Assembly: GCF_000568255.1 (NCBI RefSeq)
Contig: NZ_KK037166.1
Span: forward strand, 2,958,588 to 2,994,790
DNA length: 36,203 bases
Reading direction: 5' to 3'
Source of the DNA: Kutzneria sp. 744
Lineage (GTDB): Bacteria > Actinomycetota > Actinomycetes > Mycobacteriales > Pseudonocardiaceae
Part shown: positions 2 to 17,179 of the stretch, piece by piece
How the letters are laid out: each line of letters opens with the position of its first letter
Position numbering within the stretch: position 1 is the stretch's first letter
Program-made: the position numbers and the translations under genes
The notes under the pieces: generated by a model
Told to the model about the DNA's origin: nothing
The model's input: only the letters and a program-made list of their open reading frames with translations
Database searches by the model: none

Positions 2-1948
2 CCGCAGCAGCTGCTGAGCCCGCCGCGCGCCTTCGTGGGCCGCACGACGGAGCTGGCGCGGCTGGACGAGGCCGGCGCGGTGGTGGTCGTGTCCGGCGCG
101 GGCGGCATCGGCAAGACCTGGCTGGCGCTGCACTGGGCGCACCGCGACGCCCACCGCTTCCCCGACGGGCAGCTGTACGTCAACCTGCGGGGCTTCGACC
201 CGTCTGGACAGCCCGTGAGCCCGGAACGGGCACTGCGCGGGTTCCTGGAGGGCCTCGGCGTGTCGTCCACGGCCGTGCCGAGCGAGGTGGAGTCGCAGGC
301 GGCGCTGTACCGGAGCCTGCTGGCCGGCCGCCGCATGCTGGTGCTGCTGGACAACGCCGCCGATTCCGCGCAGGTGGTGCCGCTGCTTCCCGGCTCGACC
401 AGCACGGTCATCGTGACCAGCCGGGATCAGCTCACGGGCCTCGTCGCCTCGCACGGCGCGCGCCGCCTCACCGTGGACACGCTGCCGCCGCGGGATGCCC
501 GAGCACTGCTGGCCGCGCGCATCGGCGCGGACCGCGTGGCCGCCGAGCGTGACGCCGTGACCGAACTGGTGGACAGCTGCGCCGGCATGCCGCTGGCGCT
601 GAGCATCGTCGCCGGCCGCGCGCAGGCGTACCCCGCGTTCCCGCTCGCGGCGCTGGCCGCCGAGCTGCGTGAGGCCCGGCTCAACGCCTTGGACGAAGAC
701 GACCCACTGGCCAGCGTGCGTGCCGTGCTGTCGTGGTCGACCGACGCCCTCAAGCCGCCGGAGGCGCAGCTGTTCGCGCTGCTCGGGCTCGCGCCGGGGC
801 CGGACATCAGCGCGCAGGCGGCCGACGCGCTGATCGGGGCCGACGCCAGCCGTGCACTCCGCGCGCTGGAACGGGTGTCGCTGGTACAGCAGAACTCGCC
901 GGGCCGCTACCGCATGCACGACCTGGTGCGACTGCACGCCGCCGAGCAGGCCAAGAGCGACCGCGACGCGGCGCTGGACCGCCTGATCGGCTACTACACG
1001 CACGGCGCCTACGCGGTGGAGCGCGCGCTGTTCCCGCACCGCGCGCTGCCGGTGCTCGCGCCCGTGCCAGAGGGACCGATCGCCTACGCGCCGCCGGACG
1101 ACGATGCTGCGTGGGCGTGGTTCCACGCCGAGCACGCGTGCCTGGCCGGCACCGCGCGACTGGCGATGCGGCGCGGCCAGTATGCCGTCGTGTGGCAGCT
1201 GGCCTGGTTCCTGGCGCCGCTGCGTTGGCGGCAGGGCTACCTGGACGACGACTTCGACGGGTGGCGGCTCGCGCTGGCCGCCGCGGAACACATCGACGAC
1301 ACCGCCGTCCGCGCCCACGCCTCGCGCGGGTTGGGCCGCGCCTGCGTGCAGTTCCACCAGATCGACGAGGGCATCGGTCACCTGCAACGGGCGCTGGACC
1401 TGTTGGCCGACACCGATCTCGCGCTCGAACGGGCGATCGTGCACAGCGCCACGGCCAACGCGTACTCCACGGGCCGGCGCTACGCGGAGGCGCTGCCCCA
1501 CGCCCGGCAGGCCCTCGCCCTGCTGGAGCCGCTCGGCCAGCCGGTGCTCACGGCCCAGGCCCGCAGCCAGGTGGGCGAGACCCTGGTCCGGCTGCGCGAG
1601 AACGAGGCCGGCCGGGCGCTGCTGGAGCAGGCGGTCACGGTCTTCCGTGAGCACGGCGACGTGGACAGCGAGGCGATCACGCTGTCCAACATCGCCATCA
1701 GCCTGGACCAGAGCGGCCGACCGGCCGAGGCGCTCGCGCTGTTCGCGACCTGCCGCGGGCTGTACACGACGAGCGGCAACCACTATCACCTGGCCGACAC
1801 GCTGGACCGCAGCGGCGACATCCTGCTGGCGTTCGGGGACATCGACGCCGCGGCCGAGTGCTGGCGGGAGGCGGTCGTGCTGTTCGCCACCACCCACCAG
1901 CGCGAGTTCGCCGAGCGGATCAAGGGCAAGCTGACCGATCTCAGCTGA
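2..1948 (+). CDS. AfsR/SARP-family regulator, NB-ARC and TPR part (5' end outside window)
   Basis: The reading frame is open from the first bases, so the gene starts before the window; the GTG at 35 is an internal codon, because the codons before it (PQQLLSPPRAFVGR) match the linker that joins the N-terminal DNA-binding/BTAD region to the ATPase domain in AfsR-type proteins. Visible are a Walker A loop GAGGIGKT (nt 95-118), a LVLLDN Walker B-like strand, a VTSRDQL stretch and a GMPLAL motif of the NB-ARC (STAND) fold. About 300 C-terminal residues then look like TPR helices (repeated ALxLLEPLGQP, AEALPHARQALALL and AEALALF patterns). Such proteins are cytoplasmic transcription activators of secondary metabolism. 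The BTAD domain is not visible, so assignment to the SARP family is inferred from the ATPase/TPR part. The 3' end overlaps the antiporter gene on the other strand by 8 bp. Confidence 0.88.
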   Translation, partial: PQQLLSPPRAFVGRTTELARLDEAGAVVVVSGAGGIGKTWLALHWAHRDAHRFPDGQLYVNLRGFDPSGQPVSPERALRGFLEGLGVSSTAVPSEVESQAALYRSLLAGRRMLVLLDNAADSAQVVPLLPGSTSTVIVTSRDQLTGLVASHGARRLTVDTLPPRDARALLAARIGADRVAAERDAVTELVDSCAGMPLALSIVAGRAQAYPAFPLAALAAELREARLNALDEDDPLASVRAVLSWSTDALKPPEAQLFALLGLAPGPDISAQAADALIGADASRALRALERVSLVQQNSPGRYRMHDLVRLHAAEQAKSDRDAALDRLIGYYTHGAYAVERALFPHRALPVLAPVPEGPIAYAPPDDDAAWAWFHAEHACLAGTARLAMRRGQYAVVWQLAWFLAPLRWRQGYLDDDFDGWRLALAAAEHIDDTAVRAHASRGLGRACVQFHQIDEGIGHLQRALDLLADTDLALERAIVHSATANAYSTGRRYAEALPHARQALALLEPLGQPVLTAQARSQVGETLVRLRENEAGRALLEQAVTVFREHGDVDSEAITLSNIAISLDQSGRPAEALALFATCRGLYTTSGNHYHLADTLDRSGDILLAFGDIDAAAECWREAVVLFATTHQREFAERIKGKLTDLS

Positions 1949-3194
1949 CCGCCGCCGGTTCGGCCAGCGGCACTCCTCTGCGCAGATCGGCGCGGTCGAG
2001 CCAGCTCAGCACCCAGGTGGTCATGGTGGTGGTGATCAGCGCGACCAGCACCAGCACGGTGAACAGCTCCGAGTTGACGATGCCGGCCGACAGGCCCACG
2101 TTCAGCGCGATCAGCTGCATCAGGCCGCGGGCGTTCATCAGCGCGCCGATCCGGCTGGCCACCGGCCCCGGCTCGCCCAGCGCCCGGGCCGCGGCCCAGC
2201 AGCCGCCGAACTTGCCGCCGATCGCCACCACCACGCAGACCGCGGCGAAGATCAGCAGGGCCGGGTCGGTGAACAGACCGAACTTGGTGTTCAGGCCGGA
2301 GTAGGTGAAGAACAGCGGCACGAACACGATCCGGATCACCGGACCGATGGTCTCCACGACCTTCTCGGACGTCTCGGTGCGCGGCATGGCCATGCCGACG
2401 CAGAACGCCCCGAACACCGCGTACAGGCCGATCTCGCCGGTGAACCAGGCCCCGGCGAACAGCACCGCGACGGTGACCATCAGCCGAACCTCGTTCGACA
2501 GCTTGGGTGTGCCCAGGGCCCAGGCCAGCAGCCGTCGCACCACGGTGGCCATCAGCACGCCGAAGATCACCACGCCGATCACCGCCACCAGCAGCGGCTC
2601 GGCCCGCCCCGAGGACAGCGCCAGCACGAGGGCCAGCAGGATCCAGGCCACCACGTCGTCGATCGCGCCGCAGGCCAGCGCGATGGAGCCGTGCCGGGTG
2701 GCCGAGATGCCGCGCTCGGTGATGATCCGGGCCAGCATCGGGAAGGCGGTGATGGCCAGCGCCACGCCGACGAACAGTGCCGCCACGAACGGGGGCACGC
2801 CGGGCTTGAAGATGTTCACGCTGCCGTTGGCGGCGAAGGTGATGCCCACGCCGAGGGCCAGCGGCCCGACGATGCCGGCGATCGACACGACCGTGGCGGT
2901 GCGGCCCGCCTTGGGCGGCCGGTTGGTCATGAACTCGTGGCCCGCCTGGTACATCAGGCCGACCAGGCCGATCTGGCCGGCCACGTTGAGCACCGGCCGC
3001 AGCGCCTCCGGGAACAGGAATTCCTCCGTGCCCGGGCTGATCAGGCCGAGCAGCGACGGCCCCAGCAGCACGCCGGCGATCATCTCGCCGACCACCGCGG
3101 GCTGGCCCACCTTGCCCATCAGGTAGGAAACCAGCCGGCAGAACAACAGTATGACCACGACCGCGATGAAGAATTTCGACGCGAACTCGCTCAT
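1941..3194 (-). CDS. Cation:proton antiporter, Kef/CPA2 family
   Basis: A 417-residue polytopic membrane protein with about twelve hydrophobic segments, starting MSEFASKFFIAVVVILLFCRLV. Residues such as GQPAVVGEMIAGVLLGPSLLG near the N-terminus and the ACGAIDDVVAWILLA segment with its Asp-Asp pair are typical of the CPA2 (Kef/NapA) fold, where the acidic residues exchange protons for Na+ or K+. The family KTN/TrkA regulatory tail is absent. The start ATG overlaps the P450 stop as ATGA, and a strong GAGGGGGG Shine-Dalgarno lies just upstream, so translation is coupled to the P450. It is the last gene of the four-gene operon; exporting a product, or balancing ions or pH for the redox enzymes, are both possible. 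The ion is not predictable from the sequence alone. Confidence 0.93.
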   Translation of the reverse strand: MSEFASKFFIAVVVILLFCRLVSYLMGKVGQPAVVGEMIAGVLLGPSLLGLISPGTEEFLFPEALRPVLNVAGQIGLVGLMYQAGHEFMTNRPPKAGRTATVVSIAGIVGPLALGVGITFAANGSVNIFKPGVPPFVAALFVGVALAITAFPMLARIITERGISATRHGSIALACGAIDDVVAWILLALVLALSSGRAEPLLVAVIGVVIFGVLMATVVRRLLAWALGTPKLSNEVRLMVTVAVLFAGAWFTGEIGLYAVFGAFCVGMAMPRTETSEKVVETIGPVIRIVFVPLFFTYSGLNTKFGLFTDPALLIFAAVCVVVAIGGKFGGCWAAARALGEPGPVASRIGALMNARGLMQLIALNVGLSAGIVNSELFTVLVLVALITTTMTTWVLSWLDRADLRRGVPLAEPAAVS

Positions 3195-4507
3195 GCTCCC
3201 CCCTCGAAGTAGTTCCCGCACATGCGCCGGCGACGAGCGTCCCAGACCATGTACGTGCCGAGCACCAACTGCGTGAGACTTCTGGTGATGTCCTCGCGAC
3301 GGTCCCGCCGACGCATGCGCGCCAACGGTTCCCGCAGCGAAGTCTCGGTTTTCCGGTCGACCAGCAGGCACGGCCCGCGGTGCGGGATCGACCTGGTGTG
3401 ACTCACCGAGGACGCCAAGGCGAAGCGCCGCAGCACTTCCCGCGCCACCGCCCGCATGCTCACCGGCGCGACCCCGCGGGCCGGGCAGGCCCGGTTGGCG
3501 GTGACGCCGAACGGGATGAAGGTGGTGTCCTTGGGCGACAGGTGTTCCCAGCGGTCCGGGTCGAACTGCTCGGGGCGTTCGAAGCCGCTGTTCTGGTAGG
3601 CCGCGTAGTTGAACAGCAGCACAGATCCACTGTGGACCGTCGTGCCGCTGACCCGGATGTCCTCGGTGGTGATCCGGTGCGCGATGCCGAACAGCGGAAA
3701 CGCCCGCAGCGCCTCGTTGATCACCCGGTCCAGGTAGTCGTCGTCCGCGGGCTCGCGGACCAGCCGGTCCTGCACCTTCTCGTGCTGCGCCACCGCGAGC
3801 AGCAGGTGGGTCATGGCCTCGGACATCTGCACCACGGCCGTGTTGAAGAACGCGCCCTGCAGATACCAGGCCTTCTCGTCCCGGGTGAACAGTTCCGGCA
3901 GCTCGACCGGCACGTCGTCGATGCGCCGCCGCAGGTAGTCGGTGAGCCGGTCGCGGGTGCGCATGTGCCGCAGGCCGGTCGCCTTCAGCGAGGTGACGAC
4001 GTCGTCGGCGTTGGCCACGATCAGGTTGCGAGCGTGTCGTGGGCACGACTCCTGGAACACCAGCTCGTAGTAGACCTCGGCCCAGATCGGCATCATCAGG
4101 TCACGCAGCCGGACTTCGGTCATCTCCTTGCGGGGCAACTCGTCCAGCACTCTGGCCGCGCAGCGCCGGGAGAGCTCCTCGATCTGCGGCTTCGGCACGG
4201 CCAGCACGTGACGGGAGGTGCGCGCGGCCTGGTCGTAGCGGGGACCGGCCTCCAGGTGTTCCTGGTGCACCTGCGGTCCCGGCGCCAGCCAGTACCAGAA
4301 CAGGTCCGACAGGCCCGCGCCCTCGCTGCGGCCATGGGCGGCCGGGCTGGCGTAGAGCTCACGGAAGGCCGCCGCGTCGAACCGCTCGCTCGGCACCGGA
4401 ATGCCCTCTTCCCCGTTCACCCGGGCGAAGATCCGCTCCCGCAACGCGACGACCTTGGCGGTGATCACCGCCTCCACCCCTCGCGAGTCCCGCTCCGGGG
4501 CAGCCAT
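3191..4507 (-). CDS. Cytochrome P450 with atypical I-helix and heme loop
   Basis: A 438-residue P450. The K-helix ExxR is seen in INEALRAFP, followed by a PERF-like FERPEQFDPDRW, and the heme thiolate loop reads FIPFGVTANRACPARG. Two features are odd. The I-helix segment reads GAFFNTAVVQMSEAM, so the usual acid of the acid-alcohol pair (A-G-x-D/E-T) is replaced by Asn. The heme loop has eight residues from Phe to Cys instead of seven and lacks the second conserved Gly. There is also a basic C-terminal tail of about 60 residues beyond the usual end. Start choice is uncertain: the ATG at 4507 overlaps the upstream oxidase by 43 nt and has no clear Shine-Dalgarno, while an in-frame GTG at 4468 would give a GTGA overlap but sits only 2 nt after GGAGG. 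No ferredoxin or reductase gene is near. Oxidation of a small molecule is likely; the substrate is unknown. Confidence 0.9.
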   Translation of the reverse strand: MAAPERDSRGVEAVITAKVVALRERIFARVNGEEGIPVPSERFDAAAFRELYASPAAHGRSEGAGLSDLFWYWLAPGPQVHQEHLEAGPRYDQAARTSRHVLAVPKPQIEELSRRCAARVLDELPRKEMTEVRLRDLMMPIWAEVYYELVFQESCPRHARNLIVANADDVVTSLKATGLRHMRTRDRLTDYLRRRIDDVPVELPELFTRDEKAWYLQGAFFNTAVVQMSEAMTHLLLAVAQHEKVQDRLVREPADDDYLDRVINEALRAFPLFGIAHRITTEDIRVSGTTVHSGSVLLFNYAAYQNSGFERPEQFDPDRWEHLSPKDTTFIPFGVTANRACPARGVAPVSMRAVAREVLRRFALASSVSHTRSIPHRGPCLLVDRKTETSLREPLARMRRRDRREDITRSLTQLVLGTYMVWDARRRRMCGNYFEGGA

Positions 4508-5571
4508 GTGTTGAGTTCATGACTGCCCGAGCGCGGGACACGCGGGCTACGGCGGACCAGGTTGGCGTCGAGCTCGGGGAGGGTCTTGGCGCCGAGCAGG
4601 GCCATCGCCGTGGTCAGCTCCTCCCGGAACTCGTCCAGCACGGCCCGCACCCCGTCGGCGCCGCCGGCGGCCAGTCCCCAGACCGCGGGCCGGCCGATGC
4701 CGACGGCGTCCGCGCCGAGGGCAAGCGCTTTCACCACGTCGATGCCCCGCCGCACGCCGCCGTCCACGATCAACGGCACCCGCCCCCGCACGGCGGCGGC
4801 GATCTCCGGCAGCACGTCGATCGTCGCCGGCACGGTGTCCAGCTGGCGGCCGCCATGGTTGGAAACCATGATCGCGTCCACCCGGTGCTCGACGGCCAGC
4901 GCGGCGTCGGCCGGATGCAGGACTCCCTTGAGCACCAACGGCAACGACGTGAGCTGCCGCAGCCAGGCGATATGCTCCCACGACAGGCCCGCGAACATCT
5001 CGATCGACCGGGCGGTCCCGCTGTCGTCGACCATGTTCTCGCAGCGCAGGCCCTCGGGCAGGTCGTGGAAACCGTTGCGGCGGTCCCGATCCCGGATGCC
5101 GAAGGCCGGCGAGTCGGCGGTGACCACCAGCGCCCGGCAGCCGGCCGACTCCGCCCGCTTCACCAGGTGCTCGGTGAAGGCCAGGTCGGACTGCATGTAC
5201 AGCTGGAACCACAGCGTCGCCCCGGCCCGGGCGATGCGTTCCACGGCCGTGGTCGCCGCCATGGAGACGATCATCACGACACCGCAGGAGGCGGCGGCGC
5301 GAGCCGTCGCCACCTCGCCGTCGACGTGGGCGAGCCGGTGGAAAGCCGTGGGCGACAACACGATCGGCAGCCGACTGCGCATGCCGAGCAGCATCGTCGT
5401 CGGATCCGGCTCGCCCACCGCCCGCAGCACCCGTGGCAGCAGTTCCAGCTCCGAGTACGCGGCGGTGTTCGACCGCAGCGTCGACTCCTCGCCGGCCCCG
5501 CCGGCGAAGAAGTCGTAGTGCGCGTCCGGAAGCCGTTGCCGGGCAAGGGCCTCGAAGTCGGCCGCGCTCAT
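4465..5571 (-). CDS. FMN-dependent alpha-hydroxy-acid oxidase/dehydrogenase
   Basis: A 368-residue TIM-barrel flavoprotein of the glycolate oxidase/lactate oxidase/hydroxymandelate oxidase family. It shows the N-terminal YDFFAGGAG with the active-site Tyr near residue 19, a WFQLYM strand, an FMN-contacting LVLKG Lys, the catalytic SNHGGRQLD (His and Arg), and the phosphate-binding IVDGGVRRG and GIGRP segments. These enzymes oxidise (S)-2-hydroxy acids to 2-oxo acids and pass electrons to O2 (giving H2O2) or another acceptor. The start ATG at 5571 overlaps the FMO stop as ATGA. The last 20 or so residues (after LVRRSPR) look like an extra tail, and their codons overlap the start of the P450 gene. 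Substrate and electron acceptor cannot be decided here. Confidence 0.93.
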   Translation of the reverse strand: MSAADFEALARQRLPDAHYDFFAGGAGEESTLRSNTAAYSELELLPRVLRAVGEPDPTTMLLGMRSRLPIVLSPTAFHRLAHVDGEVATARAAASCGVVMIVSMAATTAVERIARAGATLWFQLYMQSDLAFTEHLVKRAESAGCRALVVTADSPAFGIRDRDRRNGFHDLPEGLRCENMVDDSGTARSIEMFAGLSWEHIAWLRQLTSLPLVLKGVLHPADAALAVEHRVDAIMVSNHGGRQLDTVPATIDVLPEIAAAVRGRVPLIVDGGVRRGIDVVKALALGADAVGIGRPAVWGLAAGGADGVRAVLDEFREELTTAMALLGAKTLPELDANLVRRSPRVPRSGSHELNTWLPRSGTREGWRR

Positions 5572-7118
5572 GTTAGCTGTGCCGCCAAGAACTTGACCAA
5601 CGGCTCCACGTGAGCCGCCGGCTTGTCCCACTCGTTCTCCAGGTTCTCGGCCACATGGTGCTCGCCGAGCTGCTCGCCGCCGCGCCAGTGCCGGATCACC
5701 GGGTGCAGGTAGGCGGCGTCGAAAGCGGCCCCGGCGTCGTTCTGCCTGGTGCGCTTGACCGTGATGTCGAAAGGGTCGACCTTGTCGTGGTCCGGCCCGT
5801 ACTCCAGGGTGACGACGAAGGTGTCCTTGCCCTGCCCGAAGTTCTGGTCGTGCACGAAGCCGACCGGCAGCTCCTCGTAGTAGCGGGCGGTGTCGCCGTC
5901 GGCCACCACCACGTCGCCGATCACGTCGAACTGCTGCCACAGCGCGGAAGAGCGGTTCACGCGAGCCAGGATCGCCGCGGTGATCGCCTCCGGCGTGCCG
6001 GCGTGCTCGGTGCCGGGCCACTCCACGCCGTGGTACTTGCGCTCCAGGATCCGGTGCAGCGCGCGGACTCCGTAGCGGAAGCCGTGGATGAAGCCGCTGG
6101 TGCCGTGCTTGAAGTCGCGCTGCTGGGTGATCGTGCCGGCGAAGTGCAGGCCCGGCACCGAGCTCGACTCGAACTCGCTGGTCTGCTCGGGGAAGCGGTC
6201 GTCGATGACCATCTTCGGCGCGGCCCCGCCGATGTACGGCTCGGCGTCGAAGCGGAAGCCGGTCGCGCAGATCACCCGGTCGTAGTAGATCTCCTTCACG
6301 ATCTCGTCGGCCCGCACGAAGCTGAACGCCACTCGGTAGCCCTGGCCGTCGCGCTCGATCTTCAGCACGGCGCCGTCGAGGATGGCGTTCTGCGACTTGA
6401 GCTGGTAGGTGTCGAGGAAGTTGTTGTTGACAGCCCGCAGATGGCCGACGTAGTGCGTCTTCCAGGCCAGCTTGACGCCGGTGCGGGCGGCCACGTGGAT
6501 CACCGCGGCCGTCGGGATCAGGTTCTCCGCGGTCTCGAACGCGGAGTTGCCGGCGCCGATGATCAGCACCCGCTGGTTGACGAAGTCACGCCGGTCCACC
6601 GACACCGTGGCGTACTGCTCGGCCAGCTCGATGCCCTCGATGGGCGGCACGTTGGGCCGCTGCGCGACGCCGGTGGCCGACACGACCCGGCGGGCCCGGT
6701 AGGTGACGCCGTGCTCGTCGGTGGCGACGAAGTCCCCGTCCCGGTCCACGCTGGTGATCCGCGTGCCGTAGGCGATGCGCAGCTCCGAGGCCTTGGCGAA
6801 GTCCTCCAGGTAGCGCACGTACTCGCGGGCCGGCGGGAAGTACTCGTCGGTGTACCTGGTGAACAGCAGGTCCGGATCGTCGGACAGCACCGAGTTCCAG
6901 TCCATCCGCAGGTTGAACTCCGGGTCGTCGGAGCCGGTGTGGGGCTTGTTGCTGGAGATCAGCGTGCGGTGGCGGGGAAAAACCGTGAACGAGGTGCCCG
7001 CGCCCGGCCCGGCCTCGACGATCAGGTACGCCCGGCCGGCTTCCTTGAGGTGGCGGCCCATCTGCAGGCCCGCGGGCCCGGCGCCGATGACCAGGTAGTC
7101 GAGGATCTCGTCGGACAC
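5568..7118 (-). CDS. FAD-dependent monooxygenase (flavin-containing monooxygenase-like)
   Basis: The GTG at 7118 is chosen because a GGAGG Shine-Dalgarno lies 7 nt upstream; it gives 516 residues. An FAD-binding GAGPAG is at residues 12-17 after a YLVI strand, an SATGV motif at about 147-151, a second Rossmann motif for NADPH (GAGNSAFETAENL, from about 188), and a late CATGF motif. That two-Rossmann order is typical of flavin-containing/N-hydroxylating monooxygenases. About 130 C-terminal residues with a distinctive acidic, beta-rich sequence follow the core. It is the first gene of the operon and is transcribed away from the MarR-GNAT regulator, with a 222-bp shared spacer. It probably oxygenates a nucleophilic N, S or carbonyl centre of a small molecule; the substrate is unknown. 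Confidence 0.9.
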   Translation of the reverse strand: MSDEILDYLVIGAGPAGLQMGRHLKEAGRAYLIVEAGPGAGTSFTVFPRHRTLISSNKPHTGSDDPEFNLRMDWNSVLSDDPDLLFTRYTDEYFPPAREYVRYLEDFAKASELRIAYGTRITSVDRDGDFVATDEHGVTYRARRVVSATGVAQRPNVPPIEGIELAEQYATVSVDRRDFVNQRVLIIGAGNSAFETAENLIPTAAVIHVAARTGVKLAWKTHYVGHLRAVNNNFLDTYQLKSQNAILDGAVLKIERDGQGYRVAFSFVRADEIVKEIYYDRVICATGFRFDAEPYIGGAAPKMVIDDRFPEQTSEFESSSVPGLHFAGTITQQRDFKHGTSGFIHGFRYGVRALHRILERKYHGVEWPGTEHAGTPEAITAAILARVNRSSALWQQFDVIGDVVVADGDTARYYEELPVGFVHDQNFGQGKDTFVVTLEYGPDHDKVDPFDITVKRTRQNDAGAAFDAAYLHPVIRHWRGGEQLGEHHVAENLENEWDKPAAHVEPLVKFLAAQLT

Positions 7119-7341: not shown

Positions 7342-8198
7342 TGGACGCAGGTGTGGTGGCGACGGTCCGGCGGTTCAGCCGCACGGTCACACAGCGGTTC
7401 GGCGCGCTCAACGAGCACTACCTCGGTGGCGCGCGACCGCTGGGCGAAGCGCGGCTGCTGTGGGAGATCGGTGACGGCCGTGACCTCCGGACGCTGCGCG
7501 CGACGCTGGGTCTGGACTCCGGCTACCTGAGCCGGCTGCTGCGCTCGTTGGAGGCCGACGGTCTCGTGACCGTGCAGGCCGACGCCGCCGACCGCCGGGT
7601 GCGAGTGGCCCGCCTGACCACCGCCGGCAAGCGCGAGCGGCGCGCCCTGGACCGCCGCAGCGACGGCGTCGCCGAGGCTGTCCTGGCCCCGCTGTCTCCG
7701 CGCCAGCGGGAACGCCTCGTGGCCGCGATGGCCGAAGTGTCGCAGTTGCTACGCGTCGGGATGGTCGAGGTCGAGGCCGTCGACCCCGGCCATCCCGACG
7801 TGCTGCCCTGCTTCCAGGCCTACTTCGCCGACCTTGCCGTGTTGTTCGAGGACGGCTTCTCGCCGGACGCCGTCCTCCAGCCGGCGATCGAGGTCGTGCT
7901 GCTGGCCCGGCTCGGTGAGGCAACCGTTGGCTGCGTTGCCTTGTACGAGCCGGAGCCTGGTGTGTGGGAGTTGAAGCGCATGTGGGTGGACTCCTCCGCC
8001 CGTGGGCTCGGCCTCGGCCGGCGGCTACTCGCCGAGGCGGAAGCCCTTGCGCGGCAACGAGGTGCTTCGGCGATGCGGCTGGACACGAACCGGTCGCTGA
8101 CCGGGGCCATCGCGCTGTACCGGTCGGCCGGGTTCGAGGAGGTGCCGCCGTTCAACGCCGAGCCGCACGCCCATCACTGGTTCCACAAGGCTTTGTAG
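7341..8198 (+). CDS. MarR-GNAT fusion: winged-helix regulator with acetyltransferase domain
   Basis: A 285-residue protein. Residues about 1-140 form a MarR winged helix: LRATLGLDSGYLSRLLRSLEADGLVTV is the recognition-helix region and DRRVRVARLT the wing. Residues about 140-285 form a GNAT domain with the acetyl-CoA loop RGLGLGRRLLAEAE and a C-terminal AIALYRSAGF. MarR-GNAT fusions are a known bacterial family; the ligand or acetyl acceptor is not known here. The ATG at 7341 is preferred over the longer frame from 7260, because a -10 box and an inverted repeat end just before it. The gene lies divergent to the FMO-oxidase-P450-antiporter operon and is its most likely regulator. Its last 25 bp overlap the end of the opposing ribosomal protection gene. 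Confidence 0.9.
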   Translation: MDAGVVATVRRFSRTVTQRFGALNEHYLGGARPLGEARLLWEIGDGRDLRTLRATLGLDSGYLSRLLRSLEADGLVTVQADAADRRVRVARLTTAGKRERRALDRRSDGVAEAVLAPLSPRQRERLVAAMAEVSQLLRVGMVEVEAVDPGHPDVLPCFQAYFADLAVLFEDGFSPDAVLQPAIEVVLLARLGEATVGCVALYEPEPGVWELKRMWVDSSARGLGLGRRLLAEAEALARQRGASAMRLDTNRSLTGAIALYRSAGFEEVPPFNAEPHAHHWFHKAL

Positions 8199-10003
8199 CC
8201 GCCGAAGTGCGCGGTCAGCACGCCTTCGCCGCCGGTCAGCCCGGGCAGCAGGCGTTGGAACTCCCGTAGCCGGGCCGTGGGCAGCACCGCCTCGATCACC
8301 GCCGTTCCGTTGCCCAGCAAAGGCGTCCGCGGCAGGCCGTCGTGCTTGGTCAGGGTGGACAGCACCATGGTCAGCGACTCCTCGGGAACCTCCAGCTCGA
8401 TCTCCTCCAGCGGCTCGCACACCACGGTTCCCGCTTGCCGCAACGCCTTGGTCAGCACCAGCGGAGTGAGGTCGCGGAAGTCCGCCGCCACGCTGACCGG
8501 GCTGCAATATCCCGTGTGGGTCAACGTGACCACGCAGTCCTGGATCGGCCAGCCGTGCAGACCTTCTTGGAGCGTCGCGTTGACCGTGTCCTCGATGGCG
8601 GTGAGGAACGCCGCCGGCAGTGATCCACGCTCGGCCTCCAGTCGGAAAGCGGCGGCTTCGCCGGGCTCGACCCGCAGCCCGATCGTCGCCCAGTGCACCG
8701 TCTCCCCCATGCTGATCAGCCCGTGTCCCGTGCCGGCGACACGCTCGACGCAGGCCACCCGTGGCGGAGAGAACTCCGCTGTGACATCGAATTCCTCGGC
8801 CAGTCGGGCCGCGATCACCTCGCGCTGCACCTCGCCGTAGAGGGAGACGACGAGGCTGCCGTGGCGGGGGCCGCGTCGCACGTCGATCAGCGGATCCTGG
8901 TCGGCCAGCCGGCTCAGGCCGTCGAACAGCCGGGCCGGGGATTCGGCCGTCACCACGGTTTCCATGGTCGGCAGGCGGAATCGGTGCCGGCCGTCGGCCG
9001 CGTGCACGCCGAGCCGGTCGCCGACCCGCAGGCCCGGAAGTCCCGTGATGCGGGCGATCCCGCCGGCCGGGATCCGCGCCTGCTCACCGTCGACGTCCCT
9101 CACGCCCGTGGCGACACCGGATTCCGTGACCAGAACGCCGGATCGGTCGCGGCGGGCGAAGGTGACCCGGTCACGCGTGGCCAGAGAGCCCGTGAACAGC
9201 CGGGCCACCGCGGACCGGCCCTTGTCGTGTTCCACCGCGAACACCACGCCGTCCAACTCGCCGCTGGTGTCCGGATCGACGGACGGCAACAGGTCCACGA
9301 TCGCCTTGCGCAGGGCCGCAATACCGACTCCGGTGACCGCCGAGCCGAACAGCACCGGATGCACGAGTCCCCGCCGGGCTTGCGCCTGGAGTTCGCGGCG
9401 CAGCAGCGCCGGGTCGATGCCGTCCACATAGGACTCCAAAGCGGCGTCGCTGTGCTCGGCCAGCACCTCGGCCAGCTCCAGGTCGGGATCGAGGTCGACG
9501 ACGTCCGCCGACTTCGTGCCGAGATCCACCGGGCGGTTCAGGGCAATCGCGCCGGGAGTGAGCTTTCGCCGGATGTCCTGGAGCAGGTCCCTGTGCCGAG
9601 CGCCGACCCGGTCGATCTTGTTCACGAACAGGATCGTGGGCACGCCGGCCGATTTCAGGGTGCGCATGAGCACCCGGGTGTGGGCCTGCACACCCTCCAC
9701 CGCCGACAGCACCAGGATCGCGCCGTCCAGCACGCCCAGCGCGCGTTCCACCTCGGCCACGAAGTCCGTGTGGCCGGGCGTGTCGATGAGGTGCACGCGG
9801 CGGTCGGCCAGGGTGAAGGCGGCGACGGCCGAGCGGATCGTGATCCCCCGGCGGCGCTCCAGGTCCATGCCGTCGGTGGTGGTGTCCCCGTCGTCGACGG
9901 AGCCGAGGCGCTCGATGGCGCCCGAGTCGAACAGAAGTCGTTCGGTGAGGCTGGTCTTACCGGCGTCGACGTGCGCGACGACACCGAGATTGAGCATCCG
10001 CAT
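8174..10003 (-). CDS. TetM/OtrA-like ribosomal protection GTPase (EF-G paralogue)
   Basis: 609 residues, a little shorter than the roughly 640-660 usual for TetM/OtrA. The GTPase motifs are intact: AHVDAGKT (10-17), ERRRGITI (49-56), DTPGH (74-78) and NKID (128-131). EF-G-like domains II-V follow, including GYCSPVS in domain IV, the position of the YSPVS loop that reaches the tetracycline site in TetM. These proteins bind the ribosome in place of EF-G and displace the drug. The N-terminus MRMLNLGVVAHVDAGKT aligns with OtrA-type starts, supporting the ATG at 10003. It is a single-gene unit, divergent from the aldo/keto reductase. It could be intrinsic resistance or self-protection; I see no tetracycline biosynthesis genes here. 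Confidence 0.9.
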   Translation of the reverse strand: MRMLNLGVVAHVDAGKTSLTERLLFDSGAIERLGSVDDGDTTTDGMDLERRRGITIRSAVAAFTLADRRVHLIDTPGHTDFVAEVERALGVLDGAILVLSAVEGVQAHTRVLMRTLKSAGVPTILFVNKIDRVGARHRDLLQDIRRKLTPGAIALNRPVDLGTKSADVVDLDPDLELAEVLAEHSDAALESYVDGIDPALLRRELQAQARRGLVHPVLFGSAVTGVGIAALRKAIVDLLPSVDPDTSGELDGVVFAVEHDKGRSAVARLFTGSLATRDRVTFARRDRSGVLVTESGVATGVRDVDGEQARIPAGGIARITGLPGLRVGDRLGVHAADGRHRFRLPTMETVVTAESPARLFDGLSRLADQDPLIDVRRGPRHGSLVVSLYGEVQREVIAARLAEEFDVTAEFSPPRVACVERVAGTGHGLISMGETVHWATIGLRVEPGEAAAFRLEAERGSLPAAFLTAIEDTVNATLQEGLHGWPIQDCVVTLTHTGYCSPVSVAADFRDLTPLVLTKALRQAGTVVCEPLEEIELEVPEESLTMVLSTLTKHDGLPRTPLLGNGTAVIEAVLPTARLREFQRLLPGLTGGEGVLTAHFGGYKALWNQ

Positions 10004-16280: not shown

Positions 16281-17179
16281 CCGACCCCGTGACCGTTGTC
16301 GACGCGATGGAGCGGATGTCCGGGCTGCATCCCGGTTTCCGCCGGGCCCACGCCCTCGGCCGCTGCTACGACGCCGTGTTCACCCCGTCCGGCGCGGCCG
16401 CCGCGTACACCACGGCCGCGCACCTGGCGGCCGAGCCGACGCCGGCGATCGTCCGCTACTCCAACACCGCCGGCGATCCGGGCGAGCCGGACGGCGGCGC
16501 CACGGTGGTGCGGGGCATGTCGGTGAAGTTCCTGTCGCCGGAGACGGACCTGGTGTCGCTCAACGTGCCGGTGTTCATGGCGTCCACGCCGGCCAAGTTC
16601 CTGGACATGACCCGGGCGCTGACCGACAAGCCGCGGGACAGCCAGGAGCGGGCCGACGCGGTGATCGCGTTCATCACCGCGAACCCGGAGTCCGTCAACG
16701 CCTTCCAGGAGGCGGCCACCATCCCCGTGCCGGAAAGCTACGCCACCATCCGGTTCTGGGCCCAGCACGCGTTCGTCTGGGTGGGCCCGGACGGCGTGCG
16801 CCGGTTCGTGCGCTACCGCTGGGAACCCGAGGCCGGACTGCGCCACCTGACGGCGGCCGACACCGCCGACTGGGGGCCGGGTCACCTGCTGGACGAGGTG
16901 ACCGAGCGCATGCCGGTCTCCTTCCGCCTCATGGTGCAGTTCGCCGGGCCGGAGGACCCGACCGCCGATCCCACGCAGGCCTGGCCGTCCGACCGGCCGG
17001 AGATCGACACCGGCCGGCTGGAGATCTCGAAACCGGTGGCGGACCAGGAGTTCTGGGACCGGAGCGTGTTCGATCCGACCCGGTTGACCGACGGAATAGA
17101 GCTTTCGGACGATCCCGTGCTGGCGTACCGGAAGCGGGCGTACGCGGAGGGACACCGCCGCCGGGCGGCTGGTCACTAG
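16277..17179 (+). CDS. Catalase-related (small heme peroxidase-like) protein
   Basis: 300 residues, the size of small catalase-related peroxidases rather than full catalases (about 480). FRRAHALGRC carries the distal His (residue 25), IVRYSNTAGDPGEPDGG and VRGMSVKFLSP follow the catalase core pattern, and DPTQAWPSDRPEIDTGRLEI is typical of the small subfamily. I cannot place the proximal Tyr with certainty. The TTG at 16277 is chosen because it overlaps the hydrolase stop (TTGA) and has GGAG 7 nt upstream. It probably disposes of peroxide or uses it to oxidise a substrate. Confidence 0.87.
   Translation: MTDPVTVVDAMERMSGLHPGFRRAHALGRCYDAVFTPSGAAAAYTTAAHLAAEPTPAIVRYSNTAGDPGEPDGGATVVRGMSVKFLSPETDLVSLNVPVFMASTPAKFLDMTRALTDKPRDSQERADAVIAFITANPESVNAFQEAATIPVPESYATIRFWAQHAFVWVGPDGVRRFVRYRWEPEAGLRHLTAADTADWGPGHLLDEVTERMPVSFRLMVQFAGPEDPTADPTQAWPSDRPEIDTGRLEISKPVADQEFWDRSVFDPTRLTDGIELSDDPVLAYRKRAYAEGHRRRAAGH

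Follow-up and report, generated by a model that had tools for sequence, protein, structure and literature searches.

A divergent cytochrome P450 family without an I-helix acid, encoded beside an oxidase-like enzyme and a flavoprotein in Kutzneria sp. 744

Which oxidant serves a cytochrome P450 (P450) whose I-helix lacks the usual acid is the question raised by a locus of the actinomycete Kutzneria sp. 744. The locus lies in a window of 36,203 nucleotides (NCBI RefSeq assembly GCF_000568255.1, contig NZ_KK037166.1, positions 2,958,588 to 2,994,790 of the forward strand) and encodes, on the minus strand, a P450 directly downstream of a flavin mononucleotide (FMN)-dependent enzyme that resembles 2-hydroxy-acid oxidases. 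The original prediction, made from the sequence of the window, was that this oxidase may feed hydrogen peroxide (H2O2) to the P450, with no need for a ferredoxin partner. We tentatively prefer a different reading, in which the enzymes of the operon work in series along a pathway, the FMN enzyme catalyzes one step of it, and the P450, without the acid-alcohol relay, carries out non-canonical chemistry. Taken alone, such chemistry of the P450 is plausible from its sequence, and it is rated about as likely as ordinary reductase-driven catalysis.

The P450 open reading frame (ORF) matches the Pfam p450 model at 66.7 bits (cut-off 22.8) and has the features of the superfamily, an ExxR motif (E252-R255) and a heme-thiolate Cys (Cys328, within FGVTANRACPA) in a P450 fold. 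Its I-helix reads YLQGAFFNTAVVQMSEAM, in which FFNT occupies residues 207-210 and is followed by V213-Q214 (GAFFNTAVVQ). As first noticed in the AFFNT segment, the helix is acid-less, with no Asp or Glu ahead of Glu217. The AlphaFold2 model, built on a 46-row alignment (predicted local distance difference test, pLDDT, 85.3), places helix I at residues 196-228 and a C-terminal helix at 379-414. Of 114 homologous loci, 112 fit an I-helix pattern in which Asn-Thr is obligatory, and none of the 112 has an acid in the 15 residues leading to the conserved Glu. The two loci outside the pattern were read singly and carry FFNT (L023) and FGTT (L114), neither with an acid. The Asp or Glu before the I-helix Thr that marks acid-alcohol monooxygenases is absent in all 114 loci, and no acid takes its place in any register considered. 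The 115 P450 copies, including that of the window, represent 106 distinct match strings, some genomes having been fetched twice. The L114 relative, where GTT replaces FNT, is a natural variant at the key position. All 81 alignment rows share Asn209, Thr210, Val213, Gln214, Ser216, and Glu217, and likewise N, R, C, P, and A of the heme loop. Because Asn209, Thr210, and the NRxCPA motif are kept in every row, these features of the I-helix and the heme loop go beyond chance.

The residue that takes the acid position differs between alignments. When the P450 is aligned by HHalign to bacterial-type P450s of the same genome, Asn209-Thr210 falls at the acid-Thr pair with the use of gaps; aligned to five eukaryote-like P450s of that genome, Val213-Gln214 falls there gap-free, and both MAFFT alignments agree with the latter. 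In the CYP152 family, an Arg-Pro sits at the acid-alcohol pair, according to passages of PMC5818669 and PMC5377825. With CYP152 as a control, HHalign and MAFFT miss this published register by about three residues, and because the same methods misplace the Arg-Pro, sequence alone cannot fix the register of the new P450. The HP motif lies 16 residues from the presumed Thr in canonical P450s, 19 in CYP152, and either 16 (from Gln214) or 20 (from Thr210) here; this spacing is not decisive, since CYP152 itself departs from 16. The claim that an Asn replaces the acid is therefore borne out as to the missing acid in the registers considered, and is qualified by the alignments that put Val213-Gln214 in its place.

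For comparison within the genome, 24 correctly framed P450s were taken from 58 P450 matches. Classical P450 monooxygenases share the fold, ExxR motif, and Cys ligand with the new P450 but differ from it in more than the I-helix acid. The heme loop has nine residues, one over the eight of the 24 same-genome P450s (FGxGxRxC type), as had been proposed. After the heme Cys, the protein continues for 97 residues, compared to a median of 51 in 25 same-genome P450s, and ends in a helical tail that is ~45 residues longer than usual.

Searches of the PDB with phmmer and profiles returned general P450 similarity only. The first Foldseek matches are CYP51, CYP90B1, and several CYP152 structures, with template modeling (TM) scores of about 0.6-0.7. 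When 15 members of the family, 15 CYP152-like proteins (chosen via NF053744 with E up to 1e-60, all under the curated cut-off), and the 24 same-genome P450s were placed in one tree, the family formed a single long branch (length 2.33, support 100/100), and the CYP152-like proteins formed a separate branch (100/100). By sequence, this is a deeply divergent, uncharacterized P450 family that is undescribed as far as these searches show, and no recognized description of the operon or its parts was found in the open-licence literature searched.

CYP152 (P450BSbeta, SPalpha, OleT) resembles the new family in its acid-less I-helix, its altered heme loop, and its early place among the Foldseek matches. 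Membership was nevertheless rejected, and the proposed alignment with CYP152 puts the P450 outside it by motif, score, and tree. The Arg-Pro found in 15 of 15 CYP152-like rows is replaced by NT or VQ, depending on the register; the QGGG..GHRC loop is missing; and the score is 28.9 bits against a 600-bit cut-off. The new P450 also has a longer C-terminal tail, and an N-terminal hydrophobic segment, called by a hydropathy cut-off, is present in 79 of the 115 copies, the window copy being without it.

The likeness to CYP74 is more local. The I-helix FNT matches the FN321T of plant allene oxide synthase, and both heme loops place an Asn three residues before the Cys and a basic residue two before it (NRxC in 81 of 81 rows versus NKQC). 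This shared N-K/R-x-C motif is short and could be of convergent origin. The P450 is not assigned to CYP74, because the Gly-Gly after FNT is missing (AVVQ stands instead) and the profile match is weak (HHalign probability 83, confined to the C-terminal part); the heme loop is also eight columns shorter than that of allene oxide synthase. The FN-Gly-Gly pattern was derived from the plant chains compared and is presumably general across CYP74. The comparison with CYP74 that had been proposed thus turned out mixed, and the local likeness stays as a lead. Asn321 of allene oxide synthase and Asn287 of prostacyclin synthase lie near the iron, as described in a part of PMC13049297.

The oxidant question turns on the genes around the P450, which are arranged as follows.

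5568..7118, minus strand: flavin adenine dinucleotide (FAD)/NAD(P)H flavoprotein, 516 aa, Pyr_redox_3; first gene of the operon.
4465..5571, minus strand: FMN-dependent 2-hydroxy-acid oxidase-like protein, 368 aa, FMN_dh.
3191..4468, minus strand: P450 of an uncharacterized family, 425 aa from GTG 4468, Pfam p450.
1941..3194, minus strand: cation:proton antiporter, 417 aa, Na_H_Exchanger; ATGA overlap with the P450 stop.
7353..8198, plus strand: divergent MarR-GNAT gene, possibly a local regulator.

In the direction of transcription, the order is flavoprotein, oxidase, P450, and antiporter. Adjacent genes overlap by 4 nucleotides at all three junctions (ATGA, GTGA, and ATGA), and translational coupling across the four genes is therefore likely. 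The P450 and oxidase ORFs lie and overlap as first described, with the GTGA junction read directly from the sequence and the oxidase matching FMN_dh at E 1.8e-125. GTG 4468, with GGGGTGGAGG just before it, is the probable start codon of the P450; ATG 4507 is the alternative. An antiporter homologue in L083 matches a CPA2 model with a score under the model cut-off.

A contig scan found 227 stretches with a P450 relative (E up to 1e-3), and the best 80, at 56-69% identity, were kept. Most are from actinomycetes, but Paraburkholderia acidicola is also represented, together with loci from metagenome-assembled genomes labeled Candidatus Sulfopaludibacter (L039) and Granulicella (L109), and a Melainabacteria-labeled 4-kb contig (L047). 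In the survey for an oxidase-P450 pair, proposed with the original prediction, 79 of the 80 loci have the oxidase upstream of the P450; in L077 a sulfotransferase-domain gene stands between them. The flavoprotein is found in 77, and among the other three loci, L072 is a contig end. A separate set of 30 loci, including the window, has both in 30 of 30. In L080 (Nonomuraea solani), the flavoprotein, P450, antiporter, and two-component system are kept, the operon oxidase is gone, and the flavoprotein gene abuts the P450 gene. A search of the whole genome finds only a 43-44% identical oxidase family member elsewhere, in two pieces; the control genomes of L086 and L058 each have an 86-87% oxidase orthologue. 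In L045 and L077 the flavoprotein is missing from the cluster, and the copies that lie elsewhere, in other settings, are only 47-49% identical. Because of these three loci, neither the oxidase nor the flavoprotein is strictly fixed to the P450.

By tblastn, 58 of the 80 loci also hold a match to a response regulator, 56 to a histidine kinase, 46 to an AMP-ligase, and 27 to an aromatic ammonia-lyase, though the ligases and two-component genes belong to large families and some of these matches may be unrelated. Where the antiporter is missing, the next gene can encode a major facilitator superfamily transporter, an aldehyde dehydrogenase, or a DUF6282 protein. These transporter swaps and the additional genes of some loci fit a small-molecule pathway, and most likely the operon is such a pathway, with the P450 as one step. 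The ammonia-lyase gene of L083 (L083:5864-7273) and its homologues lie between two flavoprotein copies. A His-Leu selectivity pair, read by eye, suggests tyrosine as the substrate of this enzyme, as His-Leu at that site presumably confers tyrosine preference. In Paraburkholderia acidicola, a gene for a Haem_oxygenas_2 protein (an iron-containing redox enzyme) lies 3' of the antiporter (L038:12634-13398), and L039 has a 52% match to it.

Among 297 genomes of the host's family, 72 carry the P450 family; the counts are 11 of 200 for its order and 6 of 396 for its phylum, the host being included each time, and six listed genomes of the same genus gave no match. A plasmid collection gave one near full-length match among four records.

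The strongest competitor of pathway enzymes with a non-canonical P450 is an ordinary O2/NAD(P)H monooxygenase, reduced by the flavoprotein, directly or via housekeeping ferredoxins, in which Asn/Gln replaces the acid-alcohol pair. We regard it as a serious possibility, short of probable, and several observations weigh on its side and against non-canonical chemistry. The flavoprotein could be the redox partner of a normal P450, with which its presence in 77 of 80 loci agrees. The best P450 profile matches are microsomal and mitochondrial monooxygenases. N-terminal anchors, of the kind that the hydrophobic segment of many copies may represent, are typical for reductase-driven P450s. Three of the 24 examined same-genome P450s also lack the I-helix acid, with Ile or Met instead, which makes its absence alone weak evidence of unusual chemistry. 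Asn209 is kept in the window and in 113 of 114 loci, but L114 has Thr there, and the alignments differ on whether Asn209-Thr210 or Val213-Gln214 holds the acid-Thr position. In several enzymes related to those with an Asn near the iron, the Asn is replaced or dispensable, as stated in a part of PMC13049297. The altered heme loop of the P450 speaks against ordinary catalysis, as do L045 and L077, in which the flavoprotein copies are distant ones.

The flavoprotein itself could be a reductase or a monooxygenase, judging from its structure model (pLDDT 73) and profiles. Its best profile matches are flavin monooxygenases and thioredoxin-reductase-like proteins. The FxGxxxHxxx(F/Y/W) motif, which we take to be a monooxygenase fingerprint, is absent in 20 of 20 flavoprotein sequences, in favor of a reductase. 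The first Foldseek match by E-value is likewise a ferredoxin-NADP+ reductase, but its TM scores (0.33/0.46) are low and are surpassed by those of YpdA (0.47/0.72) and of a putative monooxygenase (0.51/0.70). Moreover, ~190 residues lie outside the Pyr_redox_3 match. The claim that no ferredoxin partner is encoded nearby or needed is thus only half sustained: a pattern search of predicted ORFs in the 80 loci, run without a positive control and with housekeeping ferredoxins outside its scope, found no ferredoxin-like ORF, but an FAD/NAD(P)H flavoprotein heads the operon. Because this conserved flavoprotein could serve as a partner, the lack of one nearby is not established.

Peroxide made by the neighboring enzyme is a possible oxidant for the P450, but the reading in which H2O2 from the adjacent 2-hydroxy-acid oxidase drives the P450 as a peroxygenase is unlikely. 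In line with the original description of a flavin oxidase, the neighbor is a member of the FMN_dh family whose active-site residues match those of glycolate and hydroxyacid oxidases. Its best solved single-domain relative is human hydroxyacid oxidase 1 (HAO1; about 322 bits), and it retains Tyr125, Asp153, Lys215, His239, and Arg242, which we take to be the catalytic residues. Ala76 aligns with an Ala of HAO1, and an Ala at this position is presumably linked to O2 use; this is only suggestive of O2 use and H2O2 release by the enzyme. In contrast to HAO1, the second Tyr of the YDYY motif is Phe21 and a Trp is Ala105, and these two changes suggest a bulkier substrate. The constancy of the oxidase upstream of the P450 and its HAO1-like site agree with peroxide feeding, as do the CYP152 peroxygenases among the first Foldseek matches (P450BSbeta, TM 0.66/0.69), but many other P450s score alike, and the P450 lies outside the CYP152 clade and has no Arg-Pro motif. 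The P450 of L080 also persists without an operon oxidase, though this is a single case and the 43-44% paralogue could still make H2O2. The prediction is partly supported, by the acid-less I-helix, the altered heme loop, the oxidase-like neighbor with its active-site residues, and the negative search for a ferredoxin-like ORF, and it is weakened by L080 and by the conserved flavoprotein. The alternative offered alongside it, a P450 of the isomerase or dehydratase type, is at least as compatible with an FNT that contains an amide and resembles that of CYP74.

Improbable in our estimate is an aldoxime- or oxime-dehydratase P450 that forms a nitrile after N-oxidation by the flavoprotein. The flavoprotein-P450 pairing would suit it, as would SsDesB, presumably an N-hydroxylase, at rank 22 among the Foldseek matches of the flavoprotein, and the ammonia-lyase of 27 of the 80 loci points to aromatic amino-acid chemistry. 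However, the monooxygenase fingerprint is absent from the flavoproteins, nothing pointed directly to an oxime or nitrile, and no recognized bacterial operon of this kind was found in the open-licence literature searched.

Least probable, and quite doubtful, is a hydroxy-acid-powered P450, in which the FMN enzyme would either pass single electrons to the P450, as the FMN of flavocytochrome b2 hands electrons one at a time to heme, or sustain an alpha-oxidation couple in which the P450 makes a 2-hydroxy acid and the oxidase, by oxidizing it, returns H2O2.

In the preferred reading of pathway enzymes in series, the operon enzymes would act in succession, and their substrate would be a small acid or a compound derived from an amino acid. 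Oxidation of a 2-hydroxy acid by the FMN enzyme would be a step of the pathway rather than a dedicated source of peroxide, and the P450 step would be independent of the normal acid-alcohol proton relay. Asn209/Thr210 or Gln214 may hold the reacting group, be it a peroxide, a hydroperoxide, or an N-O group, in place at the iron, and the chemistry may be of the isomerase, dehydratase, or peroxygenase type.

Three other genes of the window were noted. An EF-G-like protein (8174-10003, minus strand) most resembles the tetracycline ribosomal protection protein Otr(A), with 707 bits, under the family cut-off of 900. An NB-ARC/TPR regulator (35-1948, plus strand) resembles part of AfsR and may start past the window edge. 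A short catalase-family protein is encoded at 16289-17179 (plus strand), away from the operon.

A conserved, relay-less P450 beside an oxidase-like enzyme and a flavoprotein offers a system in which to ask where acid-less P450s obtain their oxidant. The candidate sources are reductases, peroxide from a neighbor, and the substrate itself. If a natural oxidase-peroxygenase couple proved to be true, it would be of use in biocatalysis.

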